Below, piece by piece: positions 20,958-56,490 of a DNA stretch of 64,000 nucleotides; within the stretch, counting starts at the first letter, position 1; every line of letters begins with the position of its first letter. A program made the position numbers and the translations under genes. The notes below the pieces were generated by a model that saw only the letters and a program-made list of their open reading frames with translations, searched no databases and was not told where the DNA came from. The stretch comes from Rhizobium tropici CIAT 899 (GTDB lineage Bacteria; Pseudomonadota; Alphaproteobacteria; Rhizobiales; Rhizobiaceae), in NCBI RefSeq assembly GCF_000330885.1, contig NC_020061.1, positions 286,717-350,716 on the forward strand, in the 5' to 3' direction.

Positions 20958-20973
20958 TGGCACATCTTTTGCT
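20958..20973 (+). promoter_or_regulatory. Sigma54 -24/-12 promoter downstream of the IS66 insertion
   Basis: TGGCACATCTTTTGCT is a near-perfect -24/-12 element (TGGCAC, ten-base GG-GC spacing, TTGCT). It lies 35 bases beyond the IS66 target duplication and reads toward the rpiR-type gene. Its NifA site at 15163 has been displaced by 5.7 kb. Confidence 0.75.
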
Positions 20974-21092: not shown

Positions 21093-21324
21093 TTCTCCTG
21101 ACGATGTTGGTGCGCTTGGGTTGACATCGCCTGATCTTCAAGAAAGTTTCAATCAAACCAGGTCCCGGGGAACGCTTAAGCACGTGGATGCCGTAGGCAA
21201 CACGGGCTGTTTGAGGCATCGCGGAATGGTCACGTTTGTCAACGAAGACGGCGACCTTAATCCATAGACCAAGGAAAAGCCTTTGTCGCTTAAGCATTTG
21301 CCTAATAGACTTCAGGAAGTAAGA

Positions 21325-32428: not shown

Positions 32429-33676
32429 TTACAATTGTTCCTGTTCGCCAATGTTCGGAAAAGGTGTAATCGACCAACTGATTAGGTTAACGGCACGCTC
32501 AAGTATGATCTCGGTCTGACTGCGACTGGGTGAGGTGGCAATGACGTGTCCAATCGAGTCTCGGTCATCGCTTTTCCTGACGAACGGCGTCTTCGGTTTA
32601 AGGTACAGTTCAATCTCGGCGACACCGGGCTCAGCGGCTGCCTGCCTATCGCCATTGATCCAATCGAGGATGCCATCGGTATCAGGAACTAGGAATCGTG
32701 CGGCCGCCGTCTGCGAACGTCTTCGGCTCAAATCCCATTTCTCGCCTATGACAAGCTTGATGTGCTGATTGATAAGATCGACACCATAAGCCAGCTGAAT
32801 CAGCCGAGGAGTGGTCCAACCCGGAAGACGCGGATTGACTTCAATAGCGACTGGACCTCGCTTCGTCCACCGCAATTCAATGTTCGCTGGCCCCCAACCA
32901 AGACCGAGAGCTCGTAAGCAGCTTAGTGAAACATCGGCGATGCACTTACATTGACCATCAGTTAGGGGCGCCGGAAAGATGCTCTCACGAACGACGAAAT
33001 GCGGTGGGCTGCCAAATTTGGCGGTGCCAATTGCAACGACCTCATTCCCCATTGTGTCGACACTATAGTATGGTCCTTGAGCGAACTCTTCGATTAGTAT
33101 CCCTGGCGAAGATCGCCAGATGTGCTTACCGCCCAGCAGATAAGTCGTGTGTTCAGCCACCTCCGTGATGTTGCGGCATAATCGGACCCCGCTGCTGCCG
33201 CTGCCAGTGACTGGCTTAAGTATCACCGGCAGACCAATCTCCTCTGCAGAGCTTTCAACGTCCGTTGCATCCGTTGCCAAGCGGTAGGCAGGTATTGGAA
33301 CGCCCGCCCGTGCGAGGAGTTGACGTTGAACGAATTTGTCGTAGCACTGTTCAATCGATGCTGGGTCTGGTCCGGGTAGATCGAAATGGCGGCAGAGCCT
33401 CCCGACTGTCACATAGACCGATTCATCTCGGCCCGCGAACCCAGTGATGCCCGCGATGTCATAAGTCGCACGTAGCTGGGTACACTCATGAATCATTGCA
33501 TCGAGATCGCCTGTATCGACACGGATCGCTTGTACCCTTTTTGCCGAAATATAGTCGTACTGAGCTGGGTCAACCGATAGAGTAATTGGTTGAATGCCAA
33601 GGCGCTGGGCAGCTTGAATATACAGAGGACCATTACCTCTACTACCTTCAACTAGGATGAGCGCTCTTCTTGCCAT
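32429..33676 (-). CDS. ATP-grasp ligase-like protein, copy 2
   Basis: A 415-residue ATP-grasp enzyme of the kind that ligates a carboxylate to an amine via an acyl phosphate. A preATP domain occupies about residues 1-110; the ATP-grasp fold runs to about 310, with LPVILKPVTGSGSSGVRLC (lysine and glycine-rich loop), GILIEEFAQGPYYSVDTM, NIELRWTKRGPVAIEVNPR (metal-binding Glu and Asn). About 100 more residues form a C-terminal domain. It is paralogous along its whole length to the protein at 41878-43161. The conserved post-metal segment differs (LPGWTTPR here against IAGGTYPR), so specificity may have diverged. Its promoter region aligns with that of copy 1 but the -24/-12 bases are lost. Confidence 0.87.
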   Translation of the reverse strand: MARRALILVEGSRGNGPLYIQAAQRLGIQPITLSVDPAQYDYISAKRVQAIRVDTGDLDAMIHECTQLRATYDIAGITGFAGRDESVYVTVGRLCRHFDLPGPDPASIEQCYDKFVQRQLLARAGVPIPAYRLATDATDVESSAEEIGLPVILKPVTGSGSSGVRLCRNITEVAEHTTYLLGGKHIWRSSPGILIEEFAQGPYYSVDTMGNEVVAIGTAKFGSPPHFVVRESIFPAPLTDGQCKCIADVSLSCLRALGLGWGPANIELRWTKRGPVAIEVNPRLPGWTTPRLIQLAYGVDLINQHIKLVIGEKWDLSRRRSQTAAARFLVPDTDGILDWINGDRQAAAEPGVAEIELYLKPKTPFVRKSDDRDSIGHVIATSPSRSQTEIILERAVNLISWSITPFPNIGEQEQL

Positions 33677-33759
33677 TTACGCGGAGCTCCGACGTTGACG
33701 CTCTGGATGATCTGAGGGCAAATTGCAAAGTCCCTCTCTCACTCAACGCGTTTCTTCAG

Positions 33760-33775
33760 TTTATGTGAGCGTATC
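33760..33775 (-). promoter_or_regulatory. Decayed counterpart of the copy-1 sigma54 promoter
   Basis: Aligns base for base with 43245-43260 within homologous flanks (both followed by AAAGAT and TGTAAA motifs), but the plus-strand GC and CC dinucleotides are TA and TC here. It should not be recognised by sigma54. Confidence 0.5.
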
Positions 33776-33776
33776 A

Positions 33777-34106
33777 TTGTCGGCGGGTTGCTTGTGCAAA
33801 GATTCTGTAAAACTTTTGAAGGGCCTATGCAGCGTCTATTTGAAGTTGAATCTGTCAAGTTCGTCAAACGAGGCCAAGGTAGTCGGCCGTGAATTATCCG
33901 GAAGTAGTTGATGTTTCCGGTACATCGTACGTGTCCCATTAATCGGTGTCGCAAGAAAGCTGTCGCATTGCCTCAGGAACAATGGGAGCCAACAAATGTC
34001 GAGACCTAGTGAACGGCGCGAGACGGGAGCAGGATCCGTTCCGGTCTCGTCTTGATCAGATCATTGATCTGAAGCACGACCTTATCTGGTTGGCGCAGAC
34101 AATCGA
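33777..34106. other. Intergenic region between ATP-grasp copy 2 and mobile-element sequence
   Basis: Contains the part of the upstream region shared with ATP-grasp copy 1 (to about 33810). Beyond that no gene or signal is seen. Confidence 0.35.
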
Positions 34107-34630
34107 TTGGCCGTTCTAGAAGAACGATATGGTGAGATTTATTCCGATGGAGCCGGTATGCCGCCACTACCTCGACAGCCTCTCCAGTATTTCTGCGGCG
34201 GGACATTCTTCCAACACACATTGCCGTTTCGATCGTTCGTCGCTGATGGCAGCGCAAATGCAGTTTGTCGCATGGCTGGCGCCAACGCATGGGCGAGTAG
34301 CGGATAAAGGCGCTTCTGCAGGAGAGCCTCTTGGTGGCGTCAAGACCGGTGCGATGAAGTCGTCGGACACGCGGCAGGCGATCGTCGATACAATAGTCCA
34401 AGAACATGATGTTTCCGACCGCCGCCAAGCTCATTGACCGGGCACGGAGCGGCTCGTGTGGCTGGCTCGCAGGGTGGCGCTCGATCTGCGCCAGACGGCT
34501 GGGAAAATTCGCCCTGATCCAGCACCAGCGGTATCCCCATGCCAAACAGTTCAAGCGGGCTGGGACGGCGCTGCCCAAGCTAAGGACCTATCTCGGGCGA
34601 ACGATCCGCGACATCTCACGCCGACGAAGT
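34107..34630 (+). pseudogene. IS5-type transposase relic, 5' part
   Basis: Degenerate plus-strand pieces in shifting frames read HTLPFRSFVADGS (compare the family's LPFDRSSLTRWR), KTGAMKSSDTRQAIVDTIVQ and YPHAKQFKRAGTALPKLRTYLGRTIRDISRR. The gene continues at 38707 after the IS66 insertion. Confidence 0.7.
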
Positions 34631-34712
34631 GTAAGCGCTCATTTCGTTGCGCCTTTTCGCGTTGAATTCTCTGCCGCATGAAGTGTCCACTTAAAATAGG
34701 TGGACACCAAAT

Positions 34713-35168
34713 ATGAGTGACGAAGAGCAGAAACTGCGAGTGCGGTTGGTGGGACGTGATGGGCGACGCCGCTATGATCCGGGATCAAAGGAGCGGCTTG
34801 TTGCGGCCTGCCTTGAGCCTGGTGTGTCGATATCCGGCCTTGCGCTTACGCATGGGATCAATGCCAACCTACTGCGCAAATGGGTCAAGGATGCCAGGGA
34901 GGCTCGCTTCTCGGCGGGATCTGCAAGCTCGCGGTTTATCCCGGTCGTCGCGGCAGACTGCAGCCTGCCTGTCGGGACCTCCTCGTTGGAGATGCCGGTC
35001 GCGTTTAGGGAAGACCAACCGGCGTCACTGGGGAAGGCCAATCTGTCAGGTTCTTCCAAAATAAGCGCGTTGCTACCAAACGGCGTGAAGCTGACGCTGG
35101 AATCCGGTGATGCTGATGCTTTGAGGACAATCATCGGAGCTTTGGGTCATGTTCAGACTGGGCGCTGA
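34713..35168 (+). CDS. tnpA: IS66-family accessory protein TnpA
   Basis: A 151-residue Orf1 protein with the helix-turn-helix GSKERLVAACLEPGVSISGLALTHGINANLLRKWVKDARE and the C-terminal LPNGVKLTLESGDADALRTIIGAL. Its end overlaps tnpB by 20 bases. Confidence 0.92.
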   Translation: MSDEEQKLRVRLVGRDGRRRYDPGSKERLVAACLEPGVSISGLALTHGINANLLRKWVKDAREARFSAGSASSRFIPVVAADCSLPVGTSSLEMPVAFREDQPASLGKANLSGSSKISALLPNGVKLTLESGDADALRTIIGALGHVQTGR

Positions 35169-35502
35169 TCTCAAGGTCTACCTGCATCGCGAACCGATCG
35201 ACTTCCGCGCCGGCATCAACAGCCTTGCGGTCCTGGTGCAGGAGACTATGGCGCTGGACCCGTTTGCGCCTGCGGTCTTTGCCTTTTGCAATCGCCGCCG
35301 TGACCGGATGAAGCTCCTGTTCTTCGATCGGTCCGGTTTTGTGATGGTGCTGAAGCGATTGTCGGAAGACCGGTTCCGGTGGCCACGTCGGGAGATGATG
35401 GTGGTAACGCTGACGACCGAGCAATTACACTGGATTCTCGACGGCATTGATATCGACGCGATGGTCCGCCATCCGGTTCGGCAATACCAGATCGCCGGCT
35501 GA
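35149..35502 (+). CDS. tnpB: IS66-family accessory protein TnpB
   Basis: A complete 117-residue Orf2: LKVYLHREPIDFRAGINSLAVLVQE, FAFCNRRRDRMKLLFFDRSGFVMVLKRL and FRWPRREMMVVTLTTEQLHWILDGID. Function within IS66 transposition is not resolved in the family. Confidence 0.94.
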   Translation: MFRLGADLKVYLHREPIDFRAGINSLAVLVQETMALDPFAPAVFAFCNRRRDRMKLLFFDRSGFVMVLKRLSEDRFRWPRREMMVVTLTTEQLHWILDGIDIDAMVRHPVRQYQIAG

Positions 35503-35556
35503 CAGTTCGCAACGTCTGCGGTTGACGGGGCGAAACGGTTCAGATTCAAGAATCTG

Positions 35557-36010
35557 ATGATCCGACCCGGCGAACCCACTGTTGAGGAGTTGATGGCGCG
35601 CATTGCGGCGCTGCAGGCGGAAAACCGTCAGCTCACGGAACGCGTGGTCAAGCTCGAGGAAGAGTTGGTGCTGGCGCGGCTGCATCGTTTTGCGCCGAAG
35701 AGCGAAAAGCACGTGGACCGCCTCTTCGATGAAGCCGAGCAGGTTGCCGATGACGACGCCAGCGGAGAAGATGGCGAGGTCGTCCACCTGCCGGACACCG
35801 GCTTGCCATCGACCGAAAGGCCGGAGGGCAAGAAGCGTGGCCGCAAGCCCCTGCCGGAACACCTGCCGCGCGAGCGCGTCGAATATGACATTGCCCACGA
35901 TCAGAAGGCCTGCCCTTGCTGCCGTCACCAGATGCATCGCATGGGTGAGGCGGTCACCGAGCAGCTCCATATCGAGGTGAAGGCCAAGGTCCTGCAGAAT
36001 GTGCGGTTGT
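35557..36010 (+). pseudogene. tnpC: IS66 tnpC, N-terminal part (split by IS110-type insertion)
   Basis: Reads MIRPGEPTVEELMARIAALQ, a coiled coil to about residue 45, ARLHRFAPKSEKHVDRLFDEAEQ, and the zinc-finger-like YDIAHDQKACPCCRHQMHRMGEAV, ending at HIEVKAKVLQNVR. The next bases belong to the inserted element; the gene resumes at about 37504. Confidence 0.9.
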
Positions 36011-37503
36011 CTAATCGCAATCCATTAGTCAAGTTGGTTTGGCCATTCAGTATCGCACCGTATTGCAGCACGCAAAACGGCGTATCAATTCGATAGATCG
36101 GGCCTCAGCGTCGTTTTTTTCTTTACAGCCATCCGGTGCCAGGGGCAGGGTTGTCTTCGCGGTCGACATAGGATCGCCGCATAATGGGTCTTCGCAGGGT
36201 GGACCTTCCTTTGTTCAAAACGCAAGTCTCAACGAGCTGCAGCCGCAACATACGGAATGATCCAACCCACGTCCGTGGCACGGACGCTGAGTACGCCTCA
36301 AATCAGATTTGACGCGTTGAGGTTTAAGGCAGGTACTTTCGCTTTATACGGGAGCGCCAGCCAATGCGTTGAACATTTCTCCTGTTTTGAGCATACTATG
36401 CATGATGACGGCAAGCTTTCGGGCGACCGCCACCGCAGCGCGCTTGAAGCCAAGCCGGTCACGCAGCTTGAGCCCCCAATTCTTCAGACTGCATTCGGTC
36501 CTAGCACTGGTTCTTGTAAGAAGCACCATCGCCGCTTCGTAAAGCAGCCCACGCAGACGGTTGTCGCCTCGTCGCGAGATATGGCCGTCATAATCGACCT
36601 CTCCTGATTGATAACGCCGCGTTGTCAATCCAAGCCAGGCGCCAACGGAGCGCGACTTTTTAAAGTTGTCTGGGTCTTCGATTGCGGCGACATACGAGAT
36701 GGCGGTGACGGCGCCGACCCCTGGGATCGTCATCAAAAGCTTGGTCTCCTGACTTCCCCGTGCTGCCGCGAGCAACTGGTGATCAAGACCGGCAGCGCGT
36801 CTTCGTATGTCGCACCAGGCGTCGAGCAGAGGCAATATGATCTTAGCCAAGGCGTCATTCCCATCCAGGAATTGTCTCACGTTCCCGTCAAATATTCGCC
36901 CCCTCCCTTTCGGGACAATGAGACCGAAAGTCTTCATCAGACCGCGAATTTGATTGCTGAGCTGGGTCGAGATGCTGAGCAACTGATTGCGAGCGGTCAC
37001 CAGCGTGCGTGTCAGCATGCTGTCGAATGCCTTTACCCGAACCGTCTTGTAGAATCCGGCTTCGGCCAAATGAGCTAAGCCATCCGCGTCATTGGCATCC
37101 GTCTTGTTGAGCGTCTCATCCAAAATCCTTTGGGCGTGCCGCGCTTCGATGCAGATCGCCGGCACTCCTTCGGCCGTGAGCGCATGATAGAACCACGTAG
37201 ATAACGGACCCGTCTCGAATACAACGCGCTTGGCGTGAGGGGCGTGCCTGCGGATCATCTCCGACAAAAGTTTTGGGTCGGATGGGCACTTTCCCCGCCA
37301 GATCCGCTTCCCCTCCTGTCGGATCGAGATTGCAGTTTCTTTCAATGAAACGTCCAGCCCTATATATTGGTCCACGGTTGCCTCCATTTGATGTTTGGGC
37401 CCGGTTCCAATCGTGAGCCCGTATTTCCATCTTATCGGGGGCAACCACCCCCGCCAGTAGACATTTCGTGCCTAGCATCGGGTGACGCGCGCCGCGATTA
37501 CCC
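36009..37503 (-). mobile_element. IS110-family element inserted in IS66 tnpC
   Basis: The tnpC reading ...VLQNVR is separated from FKYACRHCDRTG by about 1.5 kb that holds one IS110-type transposase. Borders are placed where tnpC homology stops and resumes, so they are good to within a few bases; the family lacks clear terminal repeats. Confidence 0.82.
36344..37387 (-). CDS. IS110-family DEDD transposase
   Basis: The 347-residue protein from MEATVDQYIGLDVSLKETAIS has the N-terminal DEDD nuclease domain (GLDVSLKE; VVFETGPLSTWFYHAL; NKTDANDADGLAHLAEAG) and the C-terminal transposase_20 domain (LLMTIPGVGAVTAISYVAAIEDPDNFKKSRSVGAWLGLTTRRYQSG, with RRGDNRLRGLLYEAA). An upstream in-frame start would add 19 residues. 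Intact and probably active. Confidence 0.94.
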   Translation of the reverse strand: MEATVDQYIGLDVSLKETAISIRQEGKRIWRGKCPSDPKLLSEMIRRHAPHAKRVVFETGPLSTWFYHALTAEGVPAICIEARHAQRILDETLNKTDANDADGLAHLAEAGFYKTVRVKAFDSMLTRTLVTARNQLLSISTQLSNQIRGLMKTFGLIVPKGRGRIFDGNVRQFLDGNDALAKIILPLLDAWCDIRRRAAGLDHQLLAAARGSQETKLLMTIPGVGAVTAISYVAAIEDPDNFKKSRSVGAWLGLTTRRYQSGEVDYDGHISRRGDNRLRGLLYEAAMVLLTRTSARTECSLKNWGLKLRDRLGFKRAAVAVARKLAVIMHSMLKTGEMFNALAGAPV

Positions 37504-38653
37504 CATGTTCAAGTATGCCTGCCGCCATTGCGACCGCACCGGCATCAACACGCCTGTCATTCTCGCGCCAATGCCCGCGCAGGCCTTGCCGGGCAGCATC
37601 GCCACGGCCTCGACACTGGCCTTCGCGCTCGTCCATAAATATGTCGATGGCACGCCGCTCTACCGCCTGGCCCAGGCCTTCGAGCGTGCCGGTGTTCCCG
37701 TCAGCCGCGGCGCTCTCGGGCATTGGGTGATCGGATCGAGCGAGAGGCATCTCTCCCGAATCTATGACGCCCTGAAATTGCGGCTCAGGGCGCAGCCGCT
37801 CATCCATGGTGACGAGACCACGGTCCAGGTCTTGAAGGAAAAGGACAAGGAAGCCACCAGCACATCCTTCATGTGGGCATACAGGAGCGGGGAAGACAGC
37901 GGCGAGCCAATCGTGCTGCTCGATTATCAACCCGGCCGCGGCCAGATTTATCCGCAGGCCTTCCTCGGCGACTACCGCGGCATCTTGATGAGCGATGGCT
38001 ACACCGCCTGGCGCACATTGAACGGCGCGACCCATGTTGGGTGTATGGCCCATTCCAGGCGTCGCTTCGTCGACGCGCTCAAGGCAAGGAAGAAAGGCGG
38101 CGGTCCGCCGGAGCAGGCGCTCAAGTTCTTCGCGCAGCTCTACCGGATTGAAAGCCAGGCGCGCAATGAGAAGCCGGATAAGGACGAAACGCGAGATCAC
38201 TGCATCCACCGCTTCCGCCAGCAACACAGCGTCCCCATCCTGAACGCTCTCAAGGCATGGCTCGACGACATCGCGCCGAAGGTCTTGCCCGATACCAAGC
38301 TTGGCGATGCCGTGTCCTACACCCTGAACCAATGGGAGTACCTGACGCGCTATACAGAAGACGGCAGGATGCCGATCGACAACAACTTGCTTGAGCGCGA
38401 CATCAGGATTTTTGCCACGGGAAGAAAGAGTTGGCTGTTCAGCGACACCGTGGACGGAGCCAAGGCCAGTGCCGTCATCTACAGCCTCATGCTGACATGC
38501 CGCGCCTGCGGCATCGAACCCTTGGCTTATCTGCGTCACGTCCTTACCGAATTACCGCAGCGTGTCATCGAAGCCGACATCACCGACCTGCTGCCCTTCA
38601 ACTTCGCTGAAACGCTGAAACCGCCGCTGCATGATCCAATGGCAGCCGTCTGA
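37504..38653 (+). pseudogene. tnpC: IS66 tnpC, C-terminal part
   Basis: Resumes at MFKYACRHCDRTGINTPV and covers the catalytic core (FALVHKYVDGTPLYRLAQAFERAGVPVSRGALGHWVI, HGDETTVQVLKEKDKEATSTSFMWAYRSG, DGYTAWRTLNGATHVGCMAHSRRRF, DNNLLERDIRIFATGRKSWLF) to DITDLLPFNF. The frame is open throughout, so precise loss of the inserted element would restore the gene. Confidence 0.92.
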
Positions 38654-38706
38654 CGGCGACCCCGGTCAAACGGGCCGCGTCAACGCGCATGGAAATGAGC
38701 GCTTAC

Positions 38707-39165
38707 GACGAAGTCGAATGCATCCGAAGGCAAGGCGCACAAGCCCTACGAGTTTGGCGTCAAGTCTCGGTGGCCTCGATACTGAACCGCTCTCCAAAGG
38801 CGGCCAGTTCGCCCTCCATGCCATGGCACTGCCAGGAACCCCTATTATGGGCGCACCCTCGAGACCATCATCCCCGACATGGAGGAGACGATCGGCAACG
38901 AGTTGTCCGCACCTGGCCGATGCCGGATATCGCGGCCACAATTCACCTGAGAGTCACAAGCTGCGGGTCTTCACAAGCCACAACAGCGCCGCGTGACGCC
39001 GGCCATCAAACGACAGATGCGACGAGAGCCAGCCGTCGAGCCCGTCATCGGCCACATCAAGAACGAGCATCGGATGGATCGCAATTATCTCGCCGGACAA
39101 AAGGAGATGCCGTCGATGCCGTTCTGGCTGCCGTTGGCTACAACTTCTTGCGCCTGCTCAGGTGA
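38707..39165 (+). pseudogene. IS5-type transposase relic, 3' part
   Basis: Degenerate plus-strand frames read DEVECIRRQGAQALRVWRQVSVA, GGQFALHAMALPGTPIMG, LADAGYRGHNSPESHKLRVF and VEPVIGHIKNEHRMDRNYLAGQK, then VLAAVGYNFLRLLR. It continues the 5' part that ends at 34630. Confidence 0.78.
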
Positions 39166-39346
39166 TTCAGAGACCTTTTATGCCTGCTCACCGTCATGCT
39201 CCTGGCGTCTCTGCTCCAGCGGCGCATGCTTCCTGAAGATCTCAACGTAAAAACTGGTTCTGCCGCACGGCGGGAGAGTTCATCATCGCCGTCCACGGTA
39301 CTTCCACAGGGAATGATTTGGTAGTTTGCATTGGCGCCCTCAGATC
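39166..39346. other. Spacer between transposase relic and kamA-like gene end
   Basis: About 180 bases with no gene or recognisable terminator. Confidence 0.3.
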
Positions 39347-40489
39347 TCATCCTTCGGGCAAATCGTCCAACCAGCAGGCGCCTTCGAGGTTCGGCCGGGA
39401 AAAGATCTTTCCGATCTTTTCTGAAGCCTTGTTTTGGTGATATCGCATATAGACGCGGCCATCAGTTCCAAAGTCGAGAATCTCGATCTTACCAGTGTAA
39501 TGCGACATGATGTATTTAAATGTCTTTTGAATGCCGCTCAGGCGTTGGTTGATGCCATGCGAAATCTCCAGGCCGCGGCGCAGTGGAACCTGAAAATGCG
39601 ATGCACCTTTCACCGGCCTGCCTTGAAATAGGTAATATGGGCGGACACCCATATGGTGACACTTGGCGAAGGTCGCGGCCAAAATGTCGGGGTCATCGTT
39701 GACTTTCGCGAGAAGCACGCACTGGTTTAGGAACTGCGTACCACGCGCCCGCAATGACCGAATGCTTCGCTCCGCATCGGCCGAAATTTCGCCGATATGG
39801 TCAAAATGCGTAACGATCACTGCGGATTTTCCAGCTACATGGATCCGTTCGAACAAGGCCACTAGAGCAGGATCCTCAAACCTTTGGGGCGCGTAGGCGA
39901 GCATTTTTGTGCCAAAACGAATGGAATTCAGATGTGGGAATGGCAGCAGATGATCAAGAATTTCATGGAGGCTGGCGGTGTTGAGCACGAACGGGTCACC
40001 TCCTGATATCAGGACGTTCGTCATCTCAGGATGACCTCCAATGTATCGCGCAATCTGCCCAAGGTCAGCTGCGATTTCATCTGAGTCCTTGCCGACAATG
40101 CGTTTGCGGAAGCAATAACGGCAGTATGAAGCGCAGCGGTCCGTTGCAAGCAACAATCCTGTTTGCGCGTACTTGTGCTGAAACCCGGGCGCGACCGTGT
40201 TTTCGTGCTCTCCGCTGGTATCCAGAGTGCCGGGACCGTCGAACTCTTCGAATGAGGGCTCGACGATGAATTTAAGCTGATCATAATGACCACTGTTGAT
40301 GATCTGTTCACGATAGAATTTTGTAACACGATAACGCGTGATGCTGTTTGCTTCCACCTCGGCGGGGGTGACTGCGCGTGCCCCCTCAATGAAATTTATG
40401 ATCTTGGACGACAACAGCGGGTCCGAACTGATGAGCGGAGCCACTTTTAATTTTGTCGTCTTACCTTGGATAGTTCGAGTGGTCTTCAT
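39347..40489 (-). CDS. KamA-family radical SAM 2,3-aminomutase (lysine- or glutamate-type)
   Basis: A 380-residue radical SAM, PLP-dependent aminomutase of the lysine 2,3-aminomutase family, which moves an amino group from C2 to C3 to give a beta-amino acid. The cluster motif is CASYCRYC (Cys119, 123, 126); further marks are LISGGDPFVLNTASLHEIL, SIRFGTKMLAYAPQRF, FLNQCVLLAKVNDDPDILA and VRPYYLFQ. The two aspartates that hold the lysine side chain in clostridial KamA (Asp293 and Asp330) correspond here to Arg in FQGRPVKG and to a non-acidic residue in KTFKYIMSHYTGK, so lysine is unlikely; a basic residue there suggests an acidic substrate such as glutamate. A NifA site and sigma54 promoter lie just upstream, so expression in nodules is expected. 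Confidence 0.85.
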   Translation of the reverse strand: MKTTRTIQGKTTKLKVAPLISSDPLLSSKIINFIEGARAVTPAEVEANSITRYRVTKFYREQIINSGHYDQLKFIVEPSFEEFDGPGTLDTSGEHENTVAPGFQHKYAQTGLLLATDRCASYCRYCFRKRIVGKDSDEIAADLGQIARYIGGHPEMTNVLISGGDPFVLNTASLHEILDHLLPFPHLNSIRFGTKMLAYAPQRFEDPALVALFERIHVAGKSAVIVTHFDHIGEISADAERSIRSLRARGTQFLNQCVLLAKVNDDPDILAATFAKCHHMGVRPYYLFQGRPVKGASHFQVPLRRGLEISHGINQRLSGIQKTFKYIMSHYTGKIEILDFGTDGRVYMRYHQNKASEKIGKIFSRPNLEGACWLDDLPEG

Positions 40490-40549
40490 CTAGAGCCCTT
40501 AATAAAAAAAGGCGAGAGGCAATTGTCGTACGGTTCTTCGTTATGCACC

Positions 40550-40565
40550 TGCAATCAATGTGCCG
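40550..40565 (-). promoter_or_regulatory. Sigma54 -24/-12 promoter for the kamA-like gene
   Basis: On the minus strand CGGCACATTGATTGCA shows the GGCAC -24 box, ten-base spacing and a perfect TTGCA -12 box. Transcription would start about 50 bases before the kamA start codon. Confidence 0.78.
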
Positions 40566-40641
40566 TCGACGATCTGATTGCTGTCAAAGTGACGCAAAGT
40601 CAGGTTACGCAGGCGTCCACAGAATACAAGGGTCTTCAGTG

Positions 40642-40657
40642 TGTCAGGGCCAGAACA
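40642..40657. promoter_or_regulatory. NifA upstream activator site for the kamA-like gene
   Basis: TGTCAGGGCCAGAACA matches TGT-N10-ACA and is about 76 bases upstream of the -24/-12 element at 40550-40565. Confidence 0.7.
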
Positions 40658-40830
40658 GAAATGGACCCAAGTTGACACGACCAATGTAAGGAATGATTGA
40701 GCCGTTGTTTTTCGAAGCACCATCTGATGTGGTTGCCGCCGCTGTCATGCGCTTGTCTTGCGGCGTGCTGATTTTTTGGCGCGCGTGGCTGGGGCTTGGC
40801 TGGACACCGCTGCTGCGGCGCCCCGACGAT

Positions 40831-40881
40831 GCCAATATCGAGGATCTGCTGCCCTTCAACTTCAAAAGCCAGCCAGCATAA
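40831..40881 (+). pseudogene. IS66 tnpC C-terminal scrap
   Basis: DANIEDLLPFNF followed by a stop matches the end of IS66 TnpC proteins. It lies between kamA and proB and may mark an old insertion that separated them. Confidence 0.5.
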
Positions 40882-40953
40882 GCCGCCGCTCTTCAAAACG
40901 ATTTACAACGTGCACTGAAAAGAGCGCTACCAATAATCAGCAATGCAGGACGA

Positions 40954-41799
40954 TTATTGAGCCTGCGGTAGGTTGTCGCCACAAGTGTGGCGGTCGCTCC
41001 TATCCCTTGCAAACGGGATAAACCAGGTTGATGGGCCACCGTTCTCGATGGCCGACAGCGGGTAAGATTTGTTTCCCTTCGCGATGATCATGTAACACCC
41101 GGCATCCATGGCGATCCTTGCTGCCATCAACTTCGTCAGCATGCCACCCGAACTATGACGAGAGACGGAATGACCGGCCATGGCCTCTATTTGGGGGGTA
41201 ATGCGTCGCACCTCTGTGATCAAACGGGCCGACGGGTTGTCGTGTGGATCTTCCGTGAAGAGGCCATCTATGTTGGAAAGCAAAATAATTATGTCAGCCT
41301 GCACCAACTCTGCGAGCTGGGCCGCCAAACGATCATTGTCGCCAAAACGGGTGTCGGCAGTTGCGGTTGTGTCGTTCTCATTGATAACGGGAACGGCGCC
41401 AACTTTGAGGATTTGTCGAACAGTTGACAGAACATTGAGTCGGCGATGCGGGTTGCGTAGATCTTCGCCCATCAATAGTATTTGTCCGAGTCCAAATCCA
41501 AACCGTTTTAAGCTCTGTTCGAAGGCAAGCATGAGTCGAACTTGACCGATGGCTGCAGCCGCTTGTCGCTCTTCACTTCTCAGAGGAACGTCAAACTCAT
41601 TGAAGTGACGTGACCCAACCGCGACAGCACCGGAGGTCACGATGATCACCTGCTGCCCACGTGAGAAAAATCGGACCACATCTTCTATCATCGTTTCAAG
41701 CCAAGAACCGCGAATGTCTCCGGTTTCTCCGTCGGCAATTAGTGCGGAGCCAATCTTCACGATTATTCGGTGAGCGGAAATTAATTGCGCCGTGGTCAT
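40954..41799 (-). CDS. ProB-like glutamate 5-kinase without PUA domain
   Basis: A 281-residue amino-acid kinase from MTTAQLISAHRIIVKIGSAL. Visible are the AAK fold motifs VKIGSALIAD, VIIVTSGAVAVGSRHF, AAAAIGQVRLMLAFEQ, VPVINENDTTATADTRFGDNDRLAAQLAELVQADIIILLSNIDGLFTEDP and GGMLTKLMAARIAMDAGC. Glutamate 5-kinase makes gamma-glutamyl phosphate for proline; housekeeping ProB of about 370 residues has a C-terminal PUA domain, which is missing here. A second, plasmid-borne, short ProB beside ATP-grasp and aminomutase genes points to a specialised pathway. It lies 78 bases behind ATP-grasp copy 1 and probably shares its sigma54 promoter. Confidence 0.88.
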   Translation of the reverse strand: MTTAQLISAHRIIVKIGSALIADGETGDIRGSWLETMIEDVVRFFSRGQQVIIVTSGAVAVGSRHFNEFDVPLRSEERQAAAAIGQVRLMLAFEQSLKRFGFGLGQILLMGEDLRNPHRRLNVLSTVRQILKVGAVPVINENDTTATADTRFGDNDRLAAQLAELVQADIIILLSNIDGLFTEDPHDNPSARLITEVRRITPQIEAMAGHSVSRHSSGGMLTKLMAARIAMDAGCYMIIAKGNKSYPLSAIENGGPSTWFIPFARDRSDRHTCGDNLPQAQ

Positions 41800-41877
41800 C
41801 AAGTGTTGCCTCGCTAAAAGGAACGCACGTCTCTGCAATCTACACTGGGCAACTCAATATTCATTGCGAATTGCCCT

Positions 41878-43161
41878 TTACCTAGAGCCTTTGAGGCTGC
41901 TGGAGGAGTTTAACGGCACGGCGTGTTCTTCTTCGCCAGAGGTAGAGAATGGCGTGATCGACCAATCGATTAGACCGACCGCATGCTGAAGTATGGCCTT
42001 GGTCTGTGCAAAGCTGGATGAAGCGGCGATCACATGTCCTATGCGGTCCCGGTAGTCACCTTTCCTGACTATCTGCGTCTTAGGCTTAACATAAAATTTG
42101 ACCTCTACAACGCCCGACACGGCAGCCGCCCGACTGTCGCCGTCGATCCAACTGAGGGTGCCATCGCGATCAGGGAGTAGGAATCGCACGGCTGCAGTCT
42201 GGAGATACGTGGTGCGTAAGTCACATTCCACGCCGGTGGCAAGCTTAATGTGCTCGGTTACGAGATCGACACCATAAGCAAGATGAGCCCGCCGAGGATA
42301 GGTTCCGCCCGCAATACGCGGATTGACTTCTATTACAACTGGGCCACGCGTCGTCCACCGCAATTCAATGTTGGTTGGCCCCCACCCAAGTCCCAGAGCT
42401 CCCAAACAGCGCAGCGCCACGTCGGAGATTCGCTCGTGCTCGTCGTTAGTCAGCAGGGCCGGAAAGATGCTCTCACGAAAGAGAAAATGTGGTGGATGAT
42501 CGAAATCGGCGGCGCTAATCCCAATGACCTCATTTCCCATCGTGTCGGCTTCATAGAACGGGCCCTGTGCGAATTCTTCGACCAGGATCTTCGGTGAAGA
42601 CCGCCATGTATGCTTCCCACCTAAAAGATGGGCCGTATGTTCGGCCAACTCGGCGACGTTTCGGCACAGTCGAACACCGATGCCGCCGATACCCCCGATC
42701 GCAGGCTTGACCACCACTGGCAGGCCGATTTCCGCGGCACAGCTTTCAACCTCCGCCGCGTTAGTGGCCAGGCGATAAGCAGGTATCGGAACGCCTCCAT
42801 CAGCGAGCAGGCGACGTTGAATGAATTTGTCGCAACATTGTTCGACCGAAGCGGGGTTTGGTCCCGGTAAATCGAATTGCTGGCAGAGCTTTCCGGCGGT
42901 CGCGTAGACCTTCTCCTCGGCGCTTGTAATGCCAACAATTTCGTAGGTCTTACCCAGCCGAGAGCATTCGTTGATCAGCGCATGGAGATTGTCTGTATCG
43001 ACTTGGATTGCTTCAACACCTCCCGCTGCGAGATAGGGGTACTGAGCTGGATCGGTCGATAGGGTAATTGGATGAAGGCCAAAACTCTTGGCAGCTTGGA
43101 CATATTGCTCACCAGTACCATGTCCGTTGCCTTCAAGCAGGATGAGCGCTCTTCTTGCCAT
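41878..43161 (-). CDS. ATP-grasp ligase-like protein, copy 1
   Basis: A 427-residue ATP-grasp enzyme, expected to form an amide bond through an acyl-phosphate. Visible are LPVVVKPAIGGIGGIGVRLC (ATP-binding Lys and glycine loop, about residues 150-170), KILVEEFAQGPFYEADTM, NIELRWTTRGPVVIEVNPRIAGGTYPR (metal-binding Glu and Asn) and a C-terminal domain of about 100 residues with VEVKFYVKPKTQIVRKGDYRDRIGHVIA. The substrate is unknown. ProB-like gene follows on the same strand, and a sigma54 promoter lies 84 bases upstream. Its paralogue is at 32429-33676. The start ATG is shared in position with that of the paralogue (MARRALIL). Confidence 0.88.
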   Translation of the reverse strand: MARRALILLEGNGHGTGEQYVQAAKSFGLHPITLSTDPAQYPYLAAGGVEAIQVDTDNLHALINECSRLGKTYEIVGITSAEEKVYATAGKLCQQFDLPGPNPASVEQCCDKFIQRRLLADGGVPIPAYRLATNAAEVESCAAEIGLPVVVKPAIGGIGGIGVRLCRNVAELAEHTAHLLGGKHTWRSSPKILVEEFAQGPFYEADTMGNEVIGISAADFDHPPHFLFRESIFPALLTNDEHERISDVALRCLGALGLGWGPTNIELRWTTRGPVVIEVNPRIAGGTYPRRAHLAYGVDLVTEHIKLATGVECDLRTTYLQTAAVRFLLPDRDGTLSWIDGDSRAAAVSGVVEVKFYVKPKTQIVRKGDYRDRIGHVIAASSSFAQTKAILQHAVGLIDWSITPFSTSGEEEHAVPLNSSSSLKGSR

Positions 43162-43244
43162 TGACTGCTGACCCTCCGTTGCGGGATTTGCGGCGGTCCG
43201 AGCGTATCCGCATCAACCTTGCTAGCTACGCCCGGCCACAGATC

Positions 43245-43260
43245 TGCAGTGAACGTACCA
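43245..43260 (-). promoter_or_regulatory. Sigma54 -24/-12 promoter for ATP-grasp copy 1 and proB
   Basis: On the minus strand TGGTACGTTCACTGCA differs from TGGCACG-N4-TTGCA at two positions and keeps both invariant dinucleotides. No exact NifA site is upstream; TGT-N10-GCA at 43325-43340 is a one-base variant. Confidence 0.68.
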
Positions 43261-43774
43261 TCCTCAGCGAATTGCGGACGTAAAGATCTTGTAAATTTTT
43301 TGTTTGACGGATCTAGGTGTGCGATGTTTTGATCGGCGCACGGTGGAATGGAGCATCACCCAGCCTACTGGCGATATCGGTAATCACGCGGTCCGAAGAA
43401 TACTCGTGTACTACCGTCACAATAACGACCGCTCAGACCTTTGCACCCTTGAGTGATCGTAATTGCTTCAGGGATCCTCTCGTTGCCTTGGCTGGCCGGG
43501 GTATTGCATCAGCGATCTAGCAAGAGCGCCGTAGAGCCGGGGGCCGACACAGCTTTTCAGTCGGAGAATGAAGCAATTGACTCATAAAGCATTAATTTGT
43601 ATCAAATGATTTATGCAGGATACTTAGCCTCGACGCGCCGCAATGAATTTGGCTGAGCGGCCTGGCAGCGGAAGGGGAGCCACGACCTGAAAACCAAACG
43701 CTCTCCCACTTCTGACGGCAGCGCCAGCAGTCTCTCCGAAACATACCGACAGTAAGCGGAAAGCAGAGAACTCA
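43261..43774. other. Divergent intergenic region between the ATP-grasp operon and the catabolic block
   Basis: About 510 bases, no gene seen. An imperfect palindrome, GCATTAATTTG-TAT-CAAATGATTTATGC near 43588, could be an operator for the acyltransferase gene; it is only loosely like the repeats at 49285 and 55061. Confidence 0.35.
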
Positions 43775-44821
43775 ATGACAAAAAACCTCATAACCAGTGT
43801 GCACGCCAAGGGCGACGCCTTCTCGATTGGTTGTGCGCTCGGGAAGGCCAATGCCACAAGCTTCCTCGAGTATCGGCTTGGCACGGAGCAATTTCGCGCT
43901 CTAGATGCTCGATGGCGCGGATCGGAATATTTGAAGAATTTGGAAGCTGCAGCCCGCGCGGCATATCCCCGCTACGTGCGCGAAATCGAGGGTATCGCAG
44001 AAGGTGCCGGCAAGGATTTCGAGACCATCTTCCTATTGAATTGCCAGACTGATCTGCAGATTCCAGACGCCGCCTCCGCGGCAAAAGCTGTTGCCGGAAT
44101 GGGCTGCACGACTGTCCTAATACCAGCTGAATGCAATGGGCCGGCGGTTATCGCCCACAATGAGGACGGCGAGCCCGAATCGCTGGGTGCCAATTTCTGG
44201 GTGGAGATTGAGCCCGATGTGGGGCCGGCGTGGAGCAGCTTTATGACCGCGGGCATGCTGCCGGGCGGTACCTTCCGCCTGAACGAGACCGGCCTGGTCC
44301 AGACGATCAACGCGATCACCCCGAACGACCAAAAACCTGGCGTGCCCCGACAGGTTCTTTGCCGCGCCATTCTTGATGCTAAAAGTTTGGACGAAGCGGT
44401 CGGCATTTTGAAGCGCAATGACCGCTCGTGTGGATTCCATCACACTCTTGGCGATGCGAAGACCCGCAAGGTACTCTCTGTCGAAGCGCCGGCCTCAGGC
44501 TGCGTCGTGGTAGAGGTTGCTGAACCGCGAGCGCATGCCAACCATCTGCTCTCCAGCGAGTTCAGTGGGGTGAAGCAGACCATCGGCGCTTCCTCCCGTG
44601 ACCGACAAGCAGCGGCGGATCGAATGATCGGCGAAGGCGCGTTGGCGGGTGGAGCAGAAGCGGTGCTGTTTGACGAGACCACTCTAATCTTCAAGGATTG
44701 GAAAGACTCCCGGACCCTCGCGACGAGTGTTTTCGAGCTTTTTCCAGACCGCATCGAGTGGCGGATACATGCGGCTCGTGACGAGCGAGCTGCACTAAGC
44801 GGAACAATGCGCGTCGTCTAA
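43775..44821 (+). CDS. C45-family acyltransferase/amidohydrolase (penicillin acyltransferase-like Ntn hydrolase)
   Basis: A 348-residue protein of the acyl-CoA:6-aminopenicillanic acid acyltransferase family (C45). These enzymes self-cleave to expose an N-terminal cysteine nucleophile; the candidate is Cys111 in GMGCTTVLIP, preceded by a typical propeptide with EIEGIAEGAGKDFETIFLLNCQTD. AHNEDGEPESLGANFWVEIEP and GGTFRLNETGLVQTINAITPNDQKPGVPRQVLCRAIL fit the core. Bacterial members usually hydrolyse or transfer acyl groups on amino acids or small amides. It heads the catabolic block, followed by a GAF-domain gene, and could release an acyl group from the imported compound. No signal peptide, so cytoplasmic. 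Confidence 0.82.
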   Translation: MTKNLITSVHAKGDAFSIGCALGKANATSFLEYRLGTEQFRALDARWRGSEYLKNLEAAARAAYPRYVREIEGIAEGAGKDFETIFLLNCQTDLQIPDAASAAKAVAGMGCTTVLIPAECNGPAVIAHNEDGEPESLGANFWVEIEPDVGPAWSSFMTAGMLPGGTFRLNETGLVQTINAITPNDQKPGVPRQVLCRAILDAKSLDEAVGILKRNDRSCGFHHTLGDAKTRKVLSVEAPASGCVVVEVAEPRAHANHLLSSEFSGVKQTIGASSRDRQAAADRMIGEGALAGGAEAVLFDETTLIFKDWKDSRTLATSVFELFPDRIEWRIHAARDERAALSGTMRVV

Positions 44822-44986: not shown

Positions 44987-45481
44987 ATGGGCTATCATCT
45001 CAGAGACGATCAGTATCAACGGCTCGTCGTATTTCACGAGCGCGCCGGCCGCCTGTCGGATTCCGAAGCCTTAATGGCATTGGCAGACAACGCTTTCCAG
45101 GAGGAATTTGGCCACAAGCTCTTTACCCTCCTCAAGGTTGATAGAGCCGCAGGCGTTATGCGGCGGATCTACTCGACCGACCTCAATTACAGTCCCCTCG
45201 GAGGAACGAAGCCCCTCGCCGATGACGAGTGGAGTAGGCGTGTCGGCGCTGGTCGGCACTTTCTGGGCAAAGATTGCGAAGACATGAAGCGCTACTTTGC
45301 CGACCACGAAACATTGATCAAAATGGGCCTCGTGGGTGTATTGAATACCGCAGTCGTTTGGCGGAACGAGGTCATTGGTTGGATCAACCTCTTGGATGCT
45401 GCCGAACATTATACCCTCGAGATGTGCGATCTCGCAGGCCTATACGCGCAGGCTCTCGCGCCTTCTTTCCTTGCTAACTGA
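44987..45481 (+). CDS. Small GAF-domain protein
   Basis: A 164-residue single-domain protein; residues about 15-160 form a GAF-like fold (ALADNAFQEEFGHKLFTLLKVDRAAGVMRRIYSTDLNYSPLGGTKPL, SVE-like strand LNTAVVWRNEVIGWINLLDAAEHYT and AGLYAQALAPSFLAN). Such stand-alone GAF proteins accompany amino-acid/amide catabolic clusters and may bind the substrate as a sensor; no output domain is present. Start ATG follows AAGGAAAGAT. It lies 165 bases behind the acyltransferase gene on the same strand. Confidence 0.75.
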   Translation: MGYHLRDDQYQRLVVFHERAGRLSDSEALMALADNAFQEEFGHKLFTLLKVDRAAGVMRRIYSTDLNYSPLGGTKPLADDEWSRRVGAGRHFLGKDCEDMKRYFADHETLIKMGLVGVLNTAVVWRNEVIGWINLLDAAEHYTLEMCDLAGLYAQALAPSFLAN

Positions 45482-45754: not shown

Positions 45755-47536
45755 TCACCGTTCAACAACGGGTAAATCGATGTAGCAACCGTGAGGACCG
45801 CGATGCAACTTGAGCTGCGGCGGTTCTCCGTCAGCGGGTACATTGGCGAAACTCGTGCTCTCGCTTCCCGCTAGACACACCCTCAAGCTATAGTCCGCTG
45901 GTATGAGCGCCGAAATCGGTAACAGTGTAAACGCCAATCTGGTCGGTTCTCCTGGTGTGAGCGGCTCGGCGTCGCTTTCCAAATAGCTTTGTTGTGGTCC
46001 GAGCGCGCCGAAAGGCGAGGCAGTCCATACTTTCCGATGACGCGCACGCAACTGGCCTTCTGTAAGGTAGCAGGAGGTCCCATCAGGTTTAACTGCTTCC
46101 AAATAGACGAAGAAAATACCGTCTTCACGGGTTGAGGTTATGTTCAGATCCACAACTGGATGCCCGGTGATCTCCAAATCATTCTGCAGCGGTTCGCTCG
46201 TATAGGCCAGTCGAGCCGCATCGAACTGTCGCCGATCTCCATAATCGATTTCCCATGTTCCAATGCCACCATTGGTGTCCCATCTGTTTGAGAGGACGTC
46301 CCCCAGTTCACGGTCAACCTGCAGAGTGTCGTAGCCCGTGTCACTCGGCGATGAGCTCAGGCGCGAGCCACTTGCCATATGCCATCGTTGTCGGACGGCC
46401 GGGACTGGCCATGAGCGCGTTGACTTCCAGGATCCCTCGCCGCACGTGTAGTAGTGAATGACTTTATCGGCCTGCAGAGCAGCCTCGCCCGTGAAACAAG
46501 CATCAATGAATCGAATATCATTTGCGTGTTGCGCCGCCATGATCGGAGCGCAGTCCTGAACATCAGCACGCAGTGGGTCATATGGTTTGCGGCCGCCATG
46601 GTTCCACGGACCAAGAATGATGTTCATGGGGTTCGACTGGAGTAGAAATCGCCGGATAGACCCGAGGGGCGACCCAGAATCGAACCAACTGCCCCAATTT
46701 TGAATCGGAACCCCCGATTGCGAGATAAGGTCAGCCGACGCCTGTGGAGAGAAATCGAACCCAGAACGTTTGCTGAGCCAATCGTCAAAGGACGTGGTTT
46801 GCTCGACCGGCTGGAATGACGGCGCGCGGCCGTGTTCTTGCAGCGCGGCCGTCAACTCCGCTTGGCTTCCCACCGGACGAATTCCCGCACGGAGAGTTGA
46901 GGCGCGATCAGCATTGATCTCGCTATTTTCGTCTCTGTTCAACGATTCAACCAGTTGACTCCACCTGTCGAGGGTAAGGTTCGGAACACCTCCTGGATAG
47001 GTTTCGAAAAAGATATCGTAGTCGACATAGCGCGGCACGATGCCTTTCAGGGCGGGATGATTTCTCGAAGCAATAAGGTCTGCAGAGTTGGCGGTGTAGG
47101 ACACGCCGTACGCAAGCACATTGCCCGTCGACCAAGGCTGTGCAGCGATCCAGTCTAACACGTAACTAAAGTCGAGGATTTCTTCGCGCGAGCGGTGACC
47201 TGGCCAAACGCCGAACGAGGCGCCGGTACCGCGAACATCTCCAACCACCACCGCATAGCCTTCTGGAACGAACAAATCCGCATATTGATTGGACGGCTCG
47301 CCCTTCTTTCCGCGCCCATAACAGGTCATAACCAAGATGGTGTTGCGCTTATGATCCGCGCTATCGCCCATCGGACGAACCACGTCCAAAGCGAGCCTGA
47401 CACCTTCGTGCGCATACACATACGTCGATTCCAATGGGCCGAGTTTCTCTCTGCCTGCAGCTTTGGCACTGAGATCAAGGCGGTATACTGGATTTTCGTT
47501 CGGCTCGGCCTGGGCCTGAAAGCGAGAATCGGTCAT
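45755..47536 (-). CDS. CocE/NonD-family serine hydrolase (X-Pro dipeptidyl peptidase S15-like)
   Basis: A 593-residue alpha/beta hydrolase from MTDSRFQAQAEPNENPVYRL; CAGGAGCG lies seven bases before this ATG, while upstream in-frame codons lack a ribosome site. The nucleophile is Ser146 in AYGVSYTA, with the oxyanion DVRGTGASFGVWPG stretch before it; the acid/base part lies in ILGPWNHGGRKPYDP. A C-terminal beta-sandwich (PepX_C: PVVDLNITSTREDGIFFVYLEAVKPDG) follows. CocE-type enzymes cleave esters or amides. It is on the minus strand 251 bases downstream of an M24 gene, likely the same transcription unit. Confidence 0.88.
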   Translation of the reverse strand: MTDSRFQAQAEPNENPVYRLDLSAKAAGREKLGPLESTYVYAHEGVRLALDVVRPMGDSADHKRNTILVMTCYGRGKKGEPSNQYADLFVPEGYAVVVGDVRGTGASFGVWPGHRSREEILDFSYVLDWIAAQPWSTGNVLAYGVSYTANSADLIASRNHPALKGIVPRYVDYDIFFETYPGGVPNLTLDRWSQLVESLNRDENSEINADRASTLRAGIRPVGSQAELTAALQEHGRAPSFQPVEQTTSFDDWLSKRSGFDFSPQASADLISQSGVPIQNWGSWFDSGSPLGSIRRFLLQSNPMNIILGPWNHGGRKPYDPLRADVQDCAPIMAAQHANDIRFIDACFTGEAALQADKVIHYYTCGEGSWKSTRSWPVPAVRQRWHMASGSRLSSSPSDTGYDTLQVDRELGDVLSNRWDTNGGIGTWEIDYGDRRQFDAARLAYTSEPLQNDLEITGHPVVDLNITSTREDGIFFVYLEAVKPDGTSCYLTEGQLRARHRKVWTASPFGALGPQQSYLESDAEPLTPGEPTRLAFTLLPISALIPADYSLRVCLAGSESTSFANVPADGEPPQLKLHRGPHGCYIDLPVVER

Positions 47537-47787
47537 GCAAACGCTCCTGTGAGTGTGCGACATATGTTTCAGTACGTAGTGTTTTGCGGCATTTGTCTTA
47601 CCAGTGCAGGGGCGCCGGCCTGGAGGGTGCGGATTGCGGGGCGCGACCGTGTTAGCCAAGCGATCCCACTAGCAGCTTTATGGTAGGCCGTTCGCGGCTC
47701 TGGGCGTGCCACCGCTCCACCGGAGCGATGACCAAAGGGCAAAGCGGCAAAATCGCGATCGCGACTAGATTCTGTCGGGACGAAGTG

Positions 47788-50629: not shown

Positions 50630-50766
50630 TCCTCTGTCCCCAACGATCTATCGGTGGCGCTCGTCCAGTCGGCGCGGGCCGTCAAAGGTTAGCGCCACCT
50701 CTTCCCACTACCTGCCTTACGGGACTGCATGCCAAAGTTGCTCATCAGTCCTGCTGGAGTATCGTA

Positions 50767-51861: not shown

Positions 51862-51879
51862 AGCGGAAGGACAGCATCC

Positions 51880-55060: not shown

Positions 55061-55080
55061 TTATAAAACAGTTGTTGCAT
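55061..55080 (+). promoter_or_regulatory. Candidate RpiR-family operator, copy upstream of the aminotransferase
   Basis: TTATAAAACAGTTGTTGCAT differs from the site at 49285-49304 by one base. It lies between divergent rpiR copy 2 and the aminotransferase, 67 bases ahead of the chosen start, and could also mediate autoregulation. Confidence 0.5.
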
Positions 55081-55146
55081 ATTTCGCCAAAACCTGCAAA
55101 TCAATGGATGGAAACGTTCGAAAGCCGGACGGATAAGCACCCCGAG

Positions 55147-56478: not shown

Positions 56479-56490
56479 GGTTCTCGCGAA

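Follow-up and report, generated by a model that had tools for sequence, protein, structure and literature searches.

L-amino-acid ligases (LALs) such as BacD, BL00235 and their relatives, and 2,3-aminomutases of the KamA family, including lysine 2,3-aminomutase (LAM), glutamate 2,3-aminomutase (GAM), BlsG and EpmB, are the closest described counterparts of enzymes encoded by a gene region in Rhizobium tropici CIAT 899. We analyzed this region within a stretch of 64,000 nucleotides (the window; positions 286717-350716 on contig C3, NC_020061.1, of a 6.69-Mb, four-contig genome). Two paralogous ATP-grasp proteins (LAL1, copy 1, 41878-43161; LAL2, copy 2, 32429-33676), a ProB-like glutamate 5-kinase (40954-41838) and a KamA-type radical S-adenosylmethionine and pyridoxal phosphate (PLP) aminomutase (39347-40489) are encoded there on the minus strand; all four had been named in the initial annotation and were confirmed as open reading frames (ORFs) of those families. 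We propose, with a probability of about 0.6, that these genes are part of a NifA-switched, bacteroid-specific specialized-metabolite module of rhizobial symbiosis replicons that makes amino-acid conjugates. Its genes, the conservation of the kamA promoter, the tie to nif, the adjacency and fusion of LAL and KamA and an active site unlike that of LAM are established, and its substrates, product, export and order of regulation are predicted.

The LAL1/LAL2 family shares with the described ligases the ATP-grasp fold with a LAL_C2 domain and sequence matches in the PDB, but its similarity to the solved enzymes is low and several paralogues occur on symbiosis replicons beside amino-acid-modifying enzymes. 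At the level of whole systems, rhizopine synthesis (mos) is controlled by the nodule, and the catabolic genes (moc) lie on the same plasmid. The R. tropici region may resemble this arrangement in combining putative catabolic genes with a nodule-type switch on one plasmid, although its predicted chemistry is amino-acid conjugation rather than that of an inosamine (for moc see also PMC3538637). In the dat region of R. leguminosarum UPM791 (Rlv UPM791), ectB lies with LAL genes near nif, and Dat, a KamA and a D-Ala-ligase-like protein are abundant in bacteroids; there, however, KamA keeps the lysine-type Asp, the authors invoke homoserine and pantothenate metabolism, and a text search of the accessible part of PMC10228743 found neither ATP-grasp nor aminomutase. 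The window also recalls ectoine synthesis and degradation, with EctB, EutB (523 bits, cut-off 413) and EutC (555 bits, cut-off 472) above their family cut-offs. Because EctB was the only member of the EctA/EctB/EctC trio among the window proteins scanned, classical ectoine synthesis was rejected; CIAT 899 and PRF 81 have likewise been reported to carry ectB without other ectoine genes (PMC3557214).

The KamA protein retains the CxxxCxxC motif, the carboxylate-binding Arg (LAM residue 134) and the PLP-binding Lys (equivalent of K337) of its family, and scored just under the cut-off of the general profile (TIGR00238, 181.9 bits, cut-off 199.2). Its scores against the profiles for LAM (TIGR03820, 160.7 bits, cut-off 525.4), GAM (TIGR04368, 162.9 bits, cut-off 650) and EpmB (TIGR03821, 174.7 bits, cut-off 369.3) were all below threshold. 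In LAM, Asp293 and Asp330 hold the side-chain amine of the substrate. The window KamA has Arg in place of Asp293, an Ile aligned to residue 330 and MSHYTGK in place of DAPGGGGK, and the same Arg replaced Asp293 in 120 of the 120 KamA relatives returned, whereas LAM, BlsG and the genome's own KamA paralogue on contig C1 retain Asp. Judged by these residues, the active site is unlike that of lysine aminomutase, the lysine-binding residues being gone. EpmB has Asp at the place of LAM residue 293; GAM has a basic residue there, which makes an acidic, or at least non-lysine, substrate our first guess for this "R-type" KamA. The enzyme roles expected initially thus survive in part: the ATP-grasp proteins remain ligases, now narrowed to the LAL type, and ProB passed its cut-off, but KamA lacks the residues that bind lysine. 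Genes at least 70% identical to kamA were found only in rhizobia among named records of genome contigs and plasmids, and in the 14 nearest comparisons dN was 0.09-0.11 against a dS of 0.5-1.1; LAL, ProB and EctB also showed dN below dS. Arg at the 293 place is also common to the four non-rhizobial relatives compared, from Paenibacillus, Streptomyces, Mycetohabitans and Burkholderia. Such Arg-type proteins outside rhizobia (L074, L075, L076, L079), two of them near nonribosomal peptide synthetase (NRPS) genes, are labeled lysine 2,3-aminomutase or 4Fe-4S protein where they are annotated, and are probably a misnamed subfamily.

A sigma54/NifA promoter had been noted initially before kamA, and both of its parts are present on the minus strand: a -24/-12 element, CGGCACATTGATTGCA, at 40550-40565 and, 76 bases above it, an exact NifA-type upstream activator sequence, TGT-N10-ACA, at 40642-40657. 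Within the window alone neither motif exceeded its frequency in shuffled sequence (76 -24/-12 sites versus 73 expected at no more than 2 mismatches; 11 TGT-N10-ACA versus 8.6), and the support for the kamA element comes instead from its conservation across relatives. Of 48 distinct kamA genes, 33 had a site with 10 or more of the 11 positions matching in the 2 kb upstream, whereas random 2-kb stretches taken from these loci had one in 6.7% of cases; at 22 of the 48, the -24/-12 element was accompanied by a TGT-N10-ACA 70-180 bp further up (random stretches, 4.2%). The 48 genes were taken as one per identical 600-bp core, with the window and both L063 kamA genes included; the loci are related to one another, for which the counts are uncorrected. 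The -24/-12 element formed a conserved block in an alignment of 10 upstream regions from Rhizobium, Sinorhizobium/Ensifer and Microvirga and in one of 5 from Bradyrhizobium. It scored 8/11 in CCGE532 and 9/11 in CB3090, with the TGT-N10-ACA occupying the same place in both strains. In genes that encode an NRPS condensation (C) domain fused ahead of KamA, the element precedes the whole fused gene, some 1.6-1.7 kb from the kamA part. With the analysis limited to 400 bp and to genes matched from close to the beginning of the query with a coverage of 60% or more, sites of at least 10/11 preceded 16 of 49 kamA, 5 of 14 RpiR, 4 of 42 ligase, none of 16 ectB and none of 7 proB genes. An order-level genome survey (1 of 397) was set aside as too thin. 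With the GG and GC of the -24/-12 element invariant and a TGT-N10-ACA at about 100 bp, the upstream sequences support a conserved NifA/sigma54-type promoter for kamA. In CB3090, CCGE532 and NXC24, kamA is encoded on the strand opposite to LAL1-proB, so the two are probably separate transcription units.

The gene itself tracks nif. Using as probe the NifK protein from the start of the window, where nifD/K/E/N/X (ORFs between 20 and 6184) were assigned by eye, we found nifK in 64 of 148 genomes of the genus and kamA (E of at most 1e-100) in 16, all of which carry nifK (Fisher P 4.5e-7), although one has an internal stop in nifK. In the 8 kamA genomes assembled into no more than 7 contigs, kamA and nifK always shared one contig. 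The window kamA is 100% identical to genes in two R. lusitanum records, R. leucaenae and R. freirei, which identifies the replicon as an R. tropici-group symbiosis plasmid. Its company is larger than the four-gene KamA, ProB and ATP-grasp pathway proposed at first. In 48 records, counted without the window, the own-genome loci L001 and L002, the loci with identical kamA (L003-L006, L057-L059), L019 and L043, the neighbors of kamA were LAL in 22, EctB in 19, a LuxR regulator in 16, an RpiR regulator in 14, a D-Ala-ligase-like ATP-grasp protein in 9, gamma-glutamyltransferase in 6 and ProB in 3. Thus KamA with LAL recurs but the full set of four does not, and the KamA-ligase tie stands within a set that also comprises LuxR, EctB, RpiR, catabolic genes and, elsewhere, exporter genes. 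In the window the LuxR/TraR-type regulator (12472-13440), EctB, a diaminobutyrate-2-oxoglutarate transaminase (13630-14958; TIGR02407, 645.5 bits, cut-off 552.2), and the MurR/RpiR-type regulator (21283-22218) lie at 12.5-22.2 kb on the plus strand, separated from kamA by insertion sequences, in which the surroundings are rich. The RpiR gene has its own -24/-12 element, TGGCACATCTTTTGCT, 325 bp upstream (20958-20973, plus strand); the sites of at least 10/11 before the 5 RpiR genes lie at 306-343 bp, and 4 of these genes, the window's included, come from close relatives.

Seen from the ligase side, 12 of 47 ligase genes in 28 loci had KamA encoded no more than 700 bp away in the same orientation (11 Arg-type, 1 Asp-type); the same 11 records, L047, and the control and further loci were left out of this count. 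Other neighbors were ProB (7 genes, 6 loci), EctC (3) and a glutamyl-tRNA-reductase-like gene (3), while 16 of the 47, LAL2 among them, adjoined none of the families tried. LAL-ProB pairs are retained in Rhizobium and Sinorhizobium, and in Bradyrhizobium sp. WSM3983, a single case, ligase and KamA form one ORF of 785 amino acids. Adjacency, this fused ORF and recurrence together support a tie between KamA and LAL ligases at the level of gene organization.

Both window ATP-grasp proteins scored above the Pfam cut-off for LAL_C2 (PF18603, 29.4 bits; LAL1 61.3, LAL2 51.2) and so have the combination of ATP-grasp and LAL_C2 that marks an L-amino-acid ligase; PDB sequence matches, given for LAL1 only, are weak and point to the solved ligases 4wd3, 3vot and 3vmm (BacD). 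We conclude that both, 64% identical to each other, are of the predicted LAL type. A third copy, also 64% identical to LAL1, lies on the same plasmid outside the window (contig C3, 369367-370602). The ProB-like protein (294 amino acids; TIGR01027, 250.9 bits, cut-off 186) aligns with solved kinases; it is a second copy, 46% identical to the chromosomal ProB of contig C1, and is too short to hold the C-terminal PUA domain. The gap between LAL1 and proB, described initially as 78 bases, has that length for an ATG start of proB and is 39 bases for the listed TTG start.

The promoter assignment that held for kamA is not supported for LAL1. The candidate -24/-12 element before LAL1 (TGGTACGTTCACTGCA, 43245-43260) scored 9/11, is identical in CB3090 and has lost its GC in CCGE532, and it coincides with the edge of a 41-bp block (43255-43295, minus strand, E 2.3e-9), whose 3′ edge overlaps it. 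This block is carried by 16 of 43 ligase upstream regions and ends about 95 bp before the start codon; because only 6 of the 16 genes, LAL1 included, retain both GG and GC, and 10, including LAL2 (block at 33772-33811, minus strand, E 6e-7), do not, the comparison does not support a sigma54/NifA element at this place. Strong sites within 400 bp before the 4 of 42 ligase genes nevertheless exceeded those in random stretches (P 0.002), and a minority of ligase genes may have NifA promoters. In Sinorhizobium meliloti T073 (pSymA, L054) and AK83 (pSINME01, L056), LAL genes lie 330-336 bp downstream of 11/11 -24/-12 sites, TGGCACGCCTTTTGCA and TGGCACGACTTTTGCA, which we take to resemble nifH-type promoters. 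A profile built from the 16 blocks, those of LAL1 and LAL2 among them, had a single strong hit beyond these, located 39 bp in front of an ectB (L018, E 1.1e-8), and four weak ones without a gene (E 0.003-0.9). The palindrome TTTGCGNNCGCAAA has three perfect copies, all before LAL genes, but as a regulon-wide operator it was rejected: its 13 near-matches barely exceeded the 11 of the best of 25 control palindromes, and only the longer block was therefore retained.

Parts of such a module have already been observed in bacteroids. Proteomics of pea bacteroids lists three such proteins as abundant there and undetected in vegetative cells: RLV_1844, a diaminobutyrate (DABA) aminotransferase; RLV_1846, a D-Ala ligase; and RLV_1884, a lysine 2,3-aminomutase (PMC7950203). 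We matched these tags to UPM791 genes by order, size and name; on that plasmid LAL genes adjoin ectB and a kamA, and genes for a major facilitator superfamily (MFS) transporter, an ABC importer and M20 and M24 proteins lie nearby. The UPM791 symbiosis plasmid also carries two glutamyl-tRNA-reductase-like paralogues (L080:12929-13876; L081:19539-20477), each beside a LAL gene, one of which agrees in size and place with the abundant bacteroid protein RLV_1848, named glutamyl-tRNA reductase (PMC7950203). The Dat aminotransferase makes diaminobutyrate in pea nodules and a dat mutant was less competitive; the group of metabolites higher with Dat includes dipeptides and that higher without it includes tripeptides (PMC10228743). 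In nifA bacteroids of Paraburkholderia phymatum, ectB fell (log2FC -7.58) and diaminobutanoate was lower, while an ATP-grasp gene of the symbiotic plasmid went the opposite way (+2.26; PMC8305402). The Mesorhizobium loti DABA transaminase gene msi260 requires NifA2 in nodules; the text of that report describes it as lacking a NifA-regulated promoter, but a table in the same report places it under NifA/RpoN-promoter genes (PMC3538637). Genes bll8232-bll8230 are among those changing in soybean nodules (PMC8632152). Some of the proteins (EctB/Dat, a KamA, a ligase) are thus already known from bacteroids for their abundance or their dependence on NifA, and the text consulted explains them one at a time. 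No LAL-KamA nodule pathway is described in the literature consulted (titles and text passages), in which the parts of the module are known but the whole is not.

These observations are consistent with the following sequence of events. Transcription of kamA would be switched on by NifA and sigma54, as would that of the MurR/RpiR regulator gene in some relatives. The LAL-type ligases would then couple amino acids into a small amide, dipeptide or pseudo-dipeptide. Dedicated enzymes would provide the unusual building blocks: KamA a 2,3-amino-shifted acid, EctB 2,4-diaminobutyrate and ProB gamma-activated glutamate; other strains would use beta-alanine made by PanD, or cyclized or semialdehyde forms made by EctC and Asd. 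The LAL and ectB genes would probably be switched mostly indirectly, some through the shared 41-bp block. A relay from NifA to RpiR and on to the ligases and ectB is a guess, one that fits the need of msi260 for NifA2 without a NifA-regulated promoter (PMC3538637). Product, export and exchange with the plant are predictions of this scheme.

At higher coordinates, the window holds hydrolase-type and putative catabolic genes: a C45 (acyl-CoA:6-APA acyltransferase-like) hydrolase/acyltransferase (43775-44821, plus strand; NF040521, 219.5 bits, cut-off 85); a CocE/NonD-S15 hydrolase (45755-47659) and a second M24 peptidase-like protein (47788-48978), both on the minus strand and assigned by family profile; an ABC importer (49526-53652, plus strand) with an SBP_bac_8/PotD-like solute-binding protein (SBP) and with ATPase and fused permeases read from the ORFs; and ectoine-utilization-like genes (55072-63196, plus strand) for a class III aminotransferase, a DoeA-like M24 protein, Lrp (read from its ORF), an M20 protein, EutB, EutC and a racemase-like protein. 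The DoeA-like and M20-like proteins scored under ectoine-specific cut-offs. A EutB copy, 63% identical, is encoded on contig C4, and the genome may therefore also carry an ordinary ectoine operon. Between the C45 and CocE genes, a 164-amino-acid ORF (44987-45481, plus strand) reads like a small sensor protein and matched nothing in Pfam or NCBIfam; in CB3090 and CCGE532, homologues 83-85% identical are found close to the C45 gene.

One explanation for this gene content is a peptidic or ectoine-like rhizopine: bacteroids would make a conjugate under NifA, and once it had left the nodule, free-living kin would take it up with the ABC importer and use it by means of the M24, M20, EutBC and aminotransferase genes. 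The basis for this reading is that the catabolic genes track kamA across plasmids. The DoeA-like M24 was at least 60% identical on 19 of 72,556 plasmid records, 17 of which were among the 27 that carry kamA; C45 homologues of at least 60% occurred on 9 plasmids, all kamA-positive, and the second M24, at 80% or more, on 5 records, again all kamA-positive. In UPM791, genes for LAL, EctB and an MFS protein lie close to nif and are followed by ABC, M20 and M24 genes (identity to the window 57% for the SBP, 79% for M20 and only 37% for M24), and nitrogen fixation is normal in M. loti mutants of msi260 (PMC3538637). However, the hypergeometric P of 1.5e-17 for the DoeA-like/kamA overlap, calculated against 249 nifK records as a rough universe, is too small, because related plasmids are not independent (at least 2 near-duplicate pairs among the 17). 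The DoeA-like gene lies from about 15 to 340 kb from kamA, and in 6 of the 17 records its match is fragmented (two or three pieces), so not every copy may be intact. M20 proteins of at least 60% identity occurred on 44 records, and 8 of the best 30 lack kamA (22 have it); relatives of the second M24, at 56-64%, are found in non-rhizobia; the DoeA-like protein is under the ectoine-hydrolase cut-off; and secretion and re-use are predictions. A pea dat mutant also lowers plant weight, which goes beyond expectation for a purely selfish compound (PMC10228743). We treat a rhizopine as possible but doubtful, the fragmented matches having slightly lowered its odds. If the genes served nitrogen and solute metabolism only, EctB, ProB and relatives would tune amino-acid pools (homoserine, pantothenate, beta-amino-acid osmolytes) and the LAL genes would be unrelated neighbors. 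Beta-amino acids can indeed act as compatible solutes, and dat has been linked to homoserine and beta-alanine (PMC10228743), but this reading leaves the LAL-KamA fusion and adjacency and the LAL-ProB pairs kept in Rhizobium and Sinorhizobium unaccounted for, and we consider it rather unlikely.

A remnant of an old NRPS system, drifting among insertion sequences, would explain why KamA is fused behind a C-domain in 11 long ORFs (in loci including L042, L013 and L016), with an apparent adenylation stub between, and why HHxxxD is missing in 9 of them. Decay is nevertheless improbable given dN below dS for KamA, LAL, ProB and EctB, the conserved promoter, HHxxxD intact in the other two fusions (L012, L049) and the abundance of related proteins in bacteroids (PMC7950203). 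The N-terminus of the window KamA resembles the start of these fusions, which suggests that it may have arisen through loss of the C-domain. That KamA is an EpmB-like protein modifier or a housekeeping lysine aminomutase in an incidental cluster is very improbable: the EpmB and LAM profiles do give it scores, but it fell under every family cut-off listed, has Arg for the lysine-binding Asp in all 120 relatives, coexists with a separate Asp-type paralogue on contig C1 and reaches at least 70% identity only in rhizobia among named records, and on its EpmB score and its Arg we rejected an EpmB identity. Several results also weigh against the NifA-switched conjugate-making module that we prefer. 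A strong site within 2 kb was absent from 15 of the 48 kamA genes, including those of the S. meliloti/medicae accessory-plasmid operons L046 and L060, and from 400 bp before every ectB examined; a LAL of the same family was not in the available stretch at 26 of 48 kamA loci, several on short contigs; and the neighbor counts, biased upwards because the loci were found through kamA, LAL or ProB, show association and not frequency. The UPM791 KamA is 30% identical to that of the window and is Asp-type, so its abundance in bacteroids proves nothing for the window KamA, and one ligase family is accompanied by two aminomutases of different type; in UPM791 stretches the block profile gave nothing better than E 0.33. 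In PMC10228743, no sigma54 site was found before dat, dat is explained by homoserine and pantothenate metabolism, and diaminobutyrate in lentil was seen only in the dat mutant. Lastly, ProB could simply supply proline synthesis.

If the NifA-switched module exists as proposed, one ligase-based pathway would give a testable reason for the presence of diaminobutyrate in nodules. In a bolder form, which we put forward as speculative and on present evidence unlikely, the module would represent a second chemical class of rhizopine: NifA-switched, LAL-made conjugates of beta-amino acids or diaminobutyrate, diversified among strains by swapping the supply enzyme beside each ligase, while ectoine-type catabolic genes matched to the product and carried by the same plasmid would reward free-living kin. 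Rhizobial ecology has long asked how partners are rewarded or strains become competitive, and the module offers one candidate mechanism.

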